A stretch of DNA of 64,000 bases from Rhodanobacter sp. LX-99 (GTDB lineage: Bacteria > Pseudomonadota > Gammaproteobacteria > Xanthomonadales > Rhodanobacteraceae), in NCBI RefSeq assembly GCF_018599185.1, contig NZ_JAHFVL010000003.1, positions 516,512-580,511 of the forward strand, read 5' to 3'. The translations under genes and the position numbers were made by a program. The notes beneath the pieces are model-generated. The model was not told the DNA's origin and searched no databases. It saw nothing but the letters and a program-made list of their open reading frames with translations. Positions 16,499 through 18,117 of this stretch are shown here, piece by piece. Position 1 is the first letter of the stretch; each line of letters opens with the position of its first letter.

Positions 16499-16882
16499 GG
16501 TCTCTCACTGAGTGTCGACAGATACCCGCGCTTTTTCCCCCTGTCCATCCAGGAGCAGTGAATCCCCCGGATTCACCGCGGCGCGGATGTGCAGAAGGTA
16601 ACTCCAATGGCGCAGCACGGCAAATCGCGTGCGGAATCACGGCACCGGGCCGGAATCCGGCCCAGGGAGGCGGCACCGGGCAGCGGTGGAGATCGCCGAA
16701 AACACTGCGGGCAGCGCCGGCTTCGAAGGTCGCGGGGTGGATTCTCCGACCCCTGAAACGAAGCGTCCCGGCCAGGCCGGGACGAAGGCTTCTCGAAGTA
16801 CTCTCCCCGCGCTGGGCACCGCGGGGAGAGAAGTCGATTGCTTGTCTTATTGTGGGTGTCGCTTGTCGTGTTGCTTGCAGCC
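16499..16882. other. Non-coding interval with two strong hairpins
   Basis: No supported gene. Two perfect dyads lie downstream of the minus-strand metJ-like gene: a 10-bp stem with 10-base loop at 16801-16830 (CTCTCCCCGC arms) and a 9-bp stem with 3-base loop at 16764-16784 (CGTCCCGGC arms). Neither is followed by a T-run on the minus strand, so they may act as transcript-end or mRNA-stabilising structures rather than canonical terminators. Confidence 0.5.
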
Positions 16883-17416
16883 TTACTTCTTCGCTTTGGC
16901 TTTCGCGGTCTTGGTGGCCTTCACCACCTTGGCCGGTGCAGCTTTCTTGGCGGCGGCCTTCTTCGGCGCAGCCTTCTTCGCGACCTTCTTCACAGCAGCT
17001 TTCTTGGCGGCTGCCGGCTTCTTGGCAGCCTTCTTGGCGGCCGGCTTCCTGGCAGCAGCCTTCTTGGCGGCCGGCTTCTTGGCAACCGGCTTCTTGGCGG
17101 CGGCCTTCTTCACGGCGGGTTTCTTGGCGGCGGCCTTCTTGGCGGCCGGTTTCTTTGCAGCGGATTTCTTGGCAGTGGCCATGGTTCGTCTCAGCTCCTC
17201 ATCAGTTGGCAGTGGTTGCCCAGTAAAAGCGTGCAGGAACGCTTCGACCAACACGTCACTGTTGGTAGCGTGCCGAAGATTGTTCACTTGACGGTGGGTG
17301 CGCAAATCAGAAAGCCGCCGCAGGACATGCAGCGGAATCGAGACAGTGATCTTGCGTACTGCATTGGCCTTTTCACCGTGCTCGACATAGGGCTTGATGA
17401 ATTTCGTTGTTGCCAT
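16883..17416 (-). CDS. metJ: MetJ-type methionine repressor fused to a histone H1-like Lys/Ala tail
   Basis: 177 residues. Residues 1-78 match E. coli MetJ closely: [13 protein letters not shown], the DNA-contacting ribbon [20 protein letters not shown] and the SAM-pocket helix [13 protein letters not shown]. MetJ is a dimeric ribbon-helix-helix repressor of methionine genes with SAM as corepressor. E. coli MetJ continues with about 30 more residues; here residues 82-177 are instead almost only Lys, Ala, Pro and Val ([10 protein letters not shown] repeats), like AlgP, PhaF or chlamydial H1-like tails. GGGGA about 9 bases upstream supports the start. An internal ATG at 17182 (residue 79) has GAGGAG upstream and could yield the tail alone. 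Confidence 0.88.
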
Positions 17417-17472
17417 AAAACGCATTCCCCGTGATCTGTTGCGAAAGCTATCCCCGAAGATTTCGGCTGTCA

Positions 17473-17496
17473 ATTGATTTTAGTCATGAAATCAAT
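17473..17496. promoter_or_regulatory. 24-bp dyad upstream of metJ
   Basis: Inverted repeat ATTGATTT / AAATCAAT with an 8-base spacer (TAGTCATG), 57 bases upstream of the metJ start in an AT-rich promoter-like stretch. It could be an operator for an unidentified regulator. It does not match the met box. Confidence 0.45.
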
Positions 17497-17570
17497 CCGA
17501 TCCACCCCGCCCCAAACCCGCCGGAGGCCTGCCGCGATAAGGCCTGAGGGGTGATCATTGGCATAATCAA

Positions 17571-17590
17571 TTGGACGTCTATACGTCCAA
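17571..17590. promoter_or_regulatory. Tandem met-box-like operator
   Basis: An inverted repeat with 8-bp arms TTGGACGT and ACGTCCAA around CTAT. Read as MetJ-type adjacent 8-mers it is GGACGTCT then ATACGTCC, matching the AGACGTCT consensus at 7 and 6 of 8 positions. MetJ binds arrays of two or more adjacent 8-bp boxes, so this is the right architecture. It lies 155 bases upstream of metJ, consistent with autoregulation, though it could serve a plus-strand transcript. Confidence 0.6.
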
Positions 17591-17674
17591 ATTTTATTTC
17601 AATGAAAAACATGAGATTCCTTGAAACCGTTGCGGCACAACGCTTTCAAGACACTCCTACGGTGATGATCCATC

Positions 17675-17682
17675 AGACGTCT
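17675..17682. promoter_or_regulatory. Isolated perfect met box
   Basis: A perfect AGACGTCT lies about 90 bases from the tandem site. The flanking 8-mers do not resemble met boxes, and MetJ normally needs at least two adjacent boxes, so it may be chance or an auxiliary site. Confidence 0.3.
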
Positions 17683-18060
17683 GCTGCAGGGAGTCGCTCG
17701 ATCAAGGTGCGTTCCGAGCCACCGAAAGGCTCCCGGCAGATGAACAGAACACGACTGAAATGAGCCGAACCCGCACCCCGGCGCACGCGAAAAATATCCG
17801 GCGCCTCGCCCCGTCCGCACCCCGGCAACGGCGCGAACGGGATGCGCGGCACTCCCGGGCCCTCATCGCCGATGGCGACCACGCGACGACATTTTGCACG
17901 CCATCACGTCGACGACGGCATGCATGCGCCATGCAGACATCGAGATGATTTCATCGGAAGGAACAGGGCGTCGCTCGCCCAGAAGCACGTCGTTCCGGCC
18001 GGCGCCGCCTGGGAAAACCGGATGGCTGCATGCACGACGCGGCGACACATTCCGCCCCCG

Positions 18061-18092
18061 AAAACGCTGCCGGCCGCACTGGGCGGCCGGCA
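18061..18092 (-). terminator. Probable terminator of gcvH
   Basis: A perfect 10-bp stem (TGCCGGCCGC / GCGGCCGGCA, loop of 5). On the minus strand it is followed by GCGTTTTC. It starts 26 bases after the gcvH stop. Confidence 0.6.
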
Positions 18093-18117
18093 AGGTCAGG
18101 CTGCGGTCAATCGCGAC

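Follow-up and report, generated by a model that had tools for sequence, protein, structure and literature searches.

The locus described here lies in a 64,000-nucleotide stretch of the Rhodanobacter sp. LX-99 genome (contig NZ_JAHFVL010000003.1, positions 516,512 to 580,511), which we refer to as the window and number from its first nucleotide. On the minus strand, an open frame running from ATG to TAA (16883..17416; 177 residues plus stop) constitutes the gene that we call metJ-H1. Its first 78 codons (17183..17416, minus strand) specify a MetJ domain, delimited by the models PF01340 and NF003622 and by alignment to the structure 1cma. The rest (16883..17182, minus strand) specifies a tail rich in Lys, Ala and Pro, and is at the same time a proposed nested gene: it opens with an ATG at 17182-17180 followed by a frame of 99 residues plus stop, and the proposal draws on composition, weak H1-like matches and a conserved Met. 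A terminator-like hairpin 3′ of the gene (16764..16784, minus strand) is a consensus match only.

The gene is flanked by gcvH and gcvT upstream and by a TonB-like gene downstream, and among 62 named loci with full flanks we find GcvH in 60, GcvT in 56, and TonB in 50. The roughly 700 nt between gcvH and metJ-H1 (17417-18117) hold no assigned gene. They contain met boxes, with a pair at 17573..17588 (no strand assigned) that has 3 mismatches to AGACGTCTAGACGTCT and has counterparts in the same place in relatives, and, by eye, an inverted repeat near 17620-17650. Also by eye, a promoter-like TTGACA, 17 nt, TAGCTT arrangement stands at 17445..17473 (minus strand), about 100 nt 3′ of the met boxes. 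Its second hexamer is weak, and a promoter scan requiring at least 4 of 6 positions per hexamer does not report it.

The assignment of residues 1-78 to MetJ, already proposed in the initial annotation, is well founded. The domain matches Pfam PF01340 with an E-value of 1.1e-34 (118.7 bits, cut-off 25) and the NCBIfam MetJ model NF003622 with 125 bits (cut-off 110), and the two PDB sequences that it matches are both E. coli-type Met repressor entries. In the alignment to 1cma, E. coli residues Lys23, Thr25, Arg40 and Arg43, which belong to the DNA-reading strand and helix A, are identical in metJ-H1, and Thr37 is replaced by Ser. The DNA-reading strand is conserved.

What follows the domain is very different. 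The MetJ match stops at about residue 89 of 105, the E. coli-type C-terminal part with helix C is not matched, and the tail takes over. Starting from residue 79, its 99 residues comprise 38 Lys, 1 Arg, 41 Ala, 8 Pro, and no Asp or Glu. The HC2 model (PF07382) reaches 36.3 bits in the tail, below its cut-off of 40, and NF038053 reaches 28.5 bits, below its cut-off of 80; thus, the term H1-like, as we use it for this tail, stands for composition and weak matches, not for a profile that is passed. The initial annotation had recognized the Lys/Ala/Pro tail and given its length as 96 residues; the tail itself is confirmed, and the difference from our 99 is a matter of where the tail is chosen to start. 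An AlphaFold model of the 177-residue protein, built with 21 sequences, is too poor to judge helix C (mean pLDDT 51.3, pTM 0.15). A basic, probably disordered, H1-like tail stands in place of the C-terminal part of MetJ.

The domain also departs from E. coli MetJ in the corepressor pocket, where Glu39 and Arg42 align with Leu and His. According to a simulation study, both residues are partners of SAM, and the co-repressor effect is predicted to weaken when they are changed (PMC2775130). The altered residues had been pointed out before, and the Leu and His are indeed there, but this is a trait of some genera only. Glu39 and Arg42 are both kept in 84 of 114 loci of the family and in 19 of 26 genera, and they are changed in genera g1, g4, g7, g16, g18, g20 and g22. 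(The count covers 114 of 116 loci, leaving out L116, which is cut, and L028, which reads Glu-Arg and was missed by the search expression.) As the protein passes the MetJ cut-offs while Glu39 and Arg42 are changed, we file it as a MetJ variant, and not as a canonical SAM-binding MetJ. Rhodanobacter is thus a genus that departs from E. coli at these positions, yet keeps its met boxes.

Evidence that the MetJ half continues to recognize met boxes comes from where those boxes are found. A search of the source genome for met-box pairs with up to 3 mismatches returns 22 sites, and the reversed pattern returns 6. We read the loci of 15 of these 22 sites and named the neighbors of three, which are those with a single mismatch. 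One lies between cysG and a CysB-like LysR gene; another is 5′ of a TonB receptor gene, for which the best model, a B12 receptor, falls far short of its cut-off of 599.7 with 61.9 bits; and the third has metX (355 bits, cut-off 296) on one side and, on the other, a peroxiredoxin gene that is followed by a cysteine synthase gene. At the other 12 loci, the best frames often run across the site.

Similar sites occur in the relatives. In 105 of 114 loci, the best met-box pair within the 400 nt upstream of metJ-H1 sits at a distance of 165-196 nt from the reference point. A pair with up to 4 mismatches is present upstream in 76 of the 114, compared with about 1.5 in shuffled sequences that keep base composition only; in 4 of 25 genera (g3, g11, g18 and g21) no upstream pair at this threshold was found. 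A further search used eight chosen genomes and 24 loci, whose neighbors were compared with seven query proteins. Met-box pairs adjoin a metX relative in seven of the eight genomes (one of these relatives is only 39% identical), adjoin metJ-H1 in four of the loci read, to which their coordinates add three further cases (G007, G016 and G088), and stand beside cysG/cysB in two. The recurrence of these pairs at metX, at cysG/cysB and at the gene itself across genomes indicates that DNA recognition appears to be kept. The sequence comparisons thus support a MetJ part that still reads met boxes, and methionine and sulfur genes very probably remain under its control.

How widespread is this gene? The best 80 of 553 matching loci come from Rhodanobacter, Dyella, Luteibacter, Frateuria, Dokdonella, Tahibacter, Oleiagrimonas, Mizugakiibacter, and many metagenome bins, with Rhodanobacter the closest among them (up to 99% identity); from the named genera among these 80 we take the family labeled f1 to be the Rhodanobacteraceae. 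A MetJ match above the cut-off is present in all 117 sampled genomes of the family. From these we took 116 loci, with none from genome G111, and the frame continues into a tail of at least 30 residues in 115 of the 116, the remaining locus ending at a contig edge. The combination of a MetJ domain with an H1-like tail, described by the initial annotation for a single gene, is therefore family-wide. Tail length ranges from 35 to 310 residues, and the longest tails occur in genus g13. Genome G306 has two copies of metJ-H1 (L287 and L288) with identical protein products, one at each end of a 5.4 Mb contig, either a duplication or an assembly artefact.

A sample of 200 genomes of the order has MetJ in 53, of which 34 belong to f1, 13 to f9 and 6 to f12, and a sample of 274 genomes of the class has it in three, the source genome and two others. 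The MetJ frames of f9 (n=13) have 95-106 residues, except for one of 143, and those of the two other genomes in the class sample 112 and 118. The six f12 proteins (L142-L147) are tailless, have 80-88 residues, and also lack the usual C-terminal part, so the loss of that part need not accompany a tail. Among all the genomes searched, the tailed MetJ is confined to f1. A literature search by titles and terms found, among the matches listed, no MetJ with an H1-like tail.

The most unusual feature of the gene sits at the border between domain and tail. The nested ATG at the first tail residue is kept in 114 of 115 readable loci (the exception is L084), and the Met is followed by Ala in 112 of 114 scored loci. 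The residue just before it varies (Thr in 76, Asp in 22, Ile in 4, Ala in 1) and is missing altogether in 11 loci, and the Met is still there! Among the best 80 of 553 loci, 78 junctions are readable and all 78 have the Met. In front of the Met, the Glu-Glu at the border is written GAG GAG in 114 of 114 loci, whereas both GAA and GAG are used for Glu in the rest of the domain; the border Arg codon is AGA in 108 of 114. (Border codons were scored in 114 of the 116 loci, excluding L016, at a contig end, and L084, which is without the Met.) The GAGGAG (17195..17200, minus strand) is Shine-Dalgarno-like by its duplex energy, and stands 12 nt 5′ of the nested ATG, or 9 nt where one codon is missing.

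The conservation extends well beyond this hexamer. A leader of about 48 nt inside the MetJ coding sequence (17183..17230, minus strand) has nearly frozen synonymous sites. Of the 14 codons preceding the border, most have a nearly fixed third position, as in ACT (112 of 114), GGG (112 of 114) and CCA (113 of 114); one Leu and one Asp codon within the leader vary. Using a tree built without the block, we count 2.4 synonymous changes per codon in the block (14 columns) and 16.5 outside (56 columns), a difference with a rank-test p of 3e-8. The codon scan and the synonymous-change count omit L016 and L116, and the latter also omits L084. The 78 readable junctions just mentioned have the block exactly in 74 cases and off by one base in four. 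Allowing up to 3 mismatches, the block is present in 224 of 233 family genomes, and in 189 of the 192 good ones, with no hits for the reversed pattern; nine family genomes lack it, among them g7 and seven whose completeness is below 94%. Within the order, 123 of 398 genomes have the block and all of them are f1. The tailless relatives (13 in f9 and 6 in f12) do not keep it.

Genus g7, represented by one genome, is the informative exception. It has Val-Val instead of the nested Met and other synonymous codons instead of the block, and it keeps a long tail. The joint loss of ATG and block is the outcome that a nested start predicts.

Another view of the same region is given by its folding and pairing energies, calculated for one locus in each of 26 genera and compared with random synonymous versions. 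The cost of opening the start region is below the random mean in 25 of 25 genera (7.3 vs 11.7 kcal/mol), and the 16S end pairs with it more strongly (−8.5 vs −5.2). The g7 sequence behaves differently: its opening cost is above the random mean (17.0 vs 13.2) and its 16S pairing of −2.2 is at the random level. Single genera are not extreme, as 1-20% of random versions open as easily and 12-36% equal them in pairing. Since the genera are, in addition, related to one another, the 25 of 25 result should be taken as support and not as 25 tests.

Other sources for the constraint were considered. An overlapping reading frame would end at a shifted-frame stop (ACT GA), which by eye is broken by ACC in 12 of 114 loci, and a GGCA/TGCC hairpin is broken in some genera; we rejected both. 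In an Rfam search over 16600-18000, none of the five matches reaches its gathering value. The lowest E-value, 0.0098, belongs to anti-hemB (23.1 bits, gathering 49.5), which falls on hairpins at 16756-16827.

Taken together, the frozen leader, the GAGGAG, the kept ATG and the joint loss in g7 suggest that the gene probably makes two proteins. The initial annotation had considered the fusion as the sole product; the fusion holds, and the conserved nested start, which it missed, suggests separate production of the tail as well. The reading that we favor, and judge to be fairly likely from the sequence data, is that one gene produces both a met-box-binding MetJ-H1 fusion and, from the nested ATG, a free H1-like protein of 99 residues. 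Translation from the first ATG would give a MetJ-family repressor with an H1-like tail in place of the usual C-terminal part. This fusion would bind tandem met boxes near metX, cysG/cysB, the TonB receptor gene and its own gene, and the two basic tails of a dimer would add nonspecific DNA contact. By analogy to PhaF and to AlgP, for which DNA binding by fragments of the tail is reported (PMC9239181), nonspecific binding of DNA by this tail is plausible. The further idea of the initial annotation, a coupling of SAM level to wider nucleoid binding, stays speculative. From the same message, the nested ATG at the first tail residue, set by the leader with its GAGGAG, would give the free H1-like protein. 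As the met-box operator lies 5′ of both starts, production of the two proteins should track the methionine/SAM state, provided that no separate promoter serves the tail. We infer that the nested start is in use, and that metJ-H1 may respond to SAM and regulate itself.

Two features of the leader do not fit so simple a picture. The spacing of 12 nt between GAGGAG and ATG is long, and counts against a plain nested start. In addition, the block extends to position −48, beyond what a ribosome-binding site needs, and fixes GGG and other codons that have no structure-lowering effect, so that part of it likely has a further or different function. We therefore put forward tentatively, as falling somewhat short of an even chance, a fuller version in which the supply of a chromatin-type protein tracks SAM through the shared operator, the half of the leader from −48 to −22 is a separate regulatory site for the tail, and the whole is a family-wide gene within a gene.

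The same excess of conservation could be read in another way, with the block acting as an internal promoter, or as a site for a protein or a small RNA, that governs the fusion mRNA or a transcript for the tail by itself, so that a second product would not be set by ribosome binding alone. In its favor, the conservation 5′ of the ribosome-binding region is sequence-specific, and the block is single-copy in the source genome within 3 mismatches. We still consider it unlikely, because the consensus scan finds no sigma-70-like site, no Rfam family exceeds its threshold (Hammerhead_II, which overlaps the block, scores 16.4 bits with a gathering value of 37), and the GGCA/TGCC hairpin is not maintained in all genera.

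One may also suppose that the fusion is the only product, and that the frozen stretch is a translational pause, GAGGAG and then the AGA codon, that allows MetJ to fold before the basic tail emerges. In its favor, the GAGGAG and AGA are fixed and stand directly at the domain border. But a pause gives no reason for a Met to be kept in 114 of 115 loci while its neighbor varies or is deleted, the block starts about 30 nt before the GAGGAG, and g7 retains the tail without any of the GAGGAG/AGA block; the pause seems to us quite improbable. Finally, a sequencing error, or two genes read as one, which had been named as the finding that would undo the fusion, deserves virtually no weight despite the tailless MetJ of 80-88 residues in six f12 genomes: it is ruled out because 115 of 116 loci keep the frame and all 11 junction deletions amount to one whole codon. 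The two f12 loci that are read further downstream (L142 and L145; the other four show about 20-30 nt past the stop) show no split two-gene form.

Having named the two-protein reading as the preferred one, we can compare metJ-H1 with known systems. A DNA-binding domain with a modular H1-like tail is also found in mycobacterial HupB, where the domain is HU and not MetJ. With E. coli MetJ (PF01340, NF003622; 1cma), metJ-H1 shares a domain above the curated cut-off, the conserved DNA-reading strand, and met boxes beside metX and 5′ of its own gene; it differs in the basic tail that stands for the C-terminal part, in the Leu and His at Glu39 and Arg42, and in the nested start. The HC2 and Burkholderia-type H1-like proteins (PF07382, NF038053) resemble the tail in composition and match it weakly, but the metJ-H1 tail remains below their cut-offs and is joined to MetJ. 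AlgP and PhaF of Pseudomonas likewise consist of a folded part and then a Lys/Ala/Pro tail; on the other hand, their N-terminal parts are not sequence-specific repressors, and the accessible portion of the source describes no nested start for them (PMC9239181). Bacterial N-terminal proteoforms, in which an internal start yields two products of one frame, are described in PMC11005335. In metJ-H1, by contrast, the short form would be a general DNA-binding tail and the long form a specific repressor.

The source genome has other proteins of this composition. A separate H1-like protein (L248, C2:176505-176981) starts MATTRKSAAKK and reaches 65 bits with HC2 (cut-off 40). A long protein, which we take to be DNA topoisomerase I-like, ends in a similar Lys/Ala tail both in the source genome (L257, C1:1660687-1660887) and in G006 (L251). 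A 409-residue frame (L261, C1:649137-649526) is Lys/Ala-rich in its first half, and its C-terminal end is presumably DksA-like. H1-like stretches seem to have been added to several DNA- or RNA-polymerase-acting proteins in this genome.

The presence of MetJ in 117 of 117 sampled Rhodanobacteraceae, a family assigned to the Xanthomonadales, can be set beside what has been written about that order. In its accessible portion, a comparative study lists no MetJ regulon for four Xanthomonadales genomes (PMC4239095), and a Xanthomonas study calls metJ missing there (PMC6230763); a contrary view is that the MetR/MetJ system appears conserved in many Gram-negatives, including Xanthomonas (PMC7270179). 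In this family, metJ-H1 allows the effect of a disordered basic tail on a well-studied repressor to be tested directly, with g7 as a natural control without the nested start. And if the nested start is used, one gene would tie the control of methionine synthesis to the supply of a histone-like protein.
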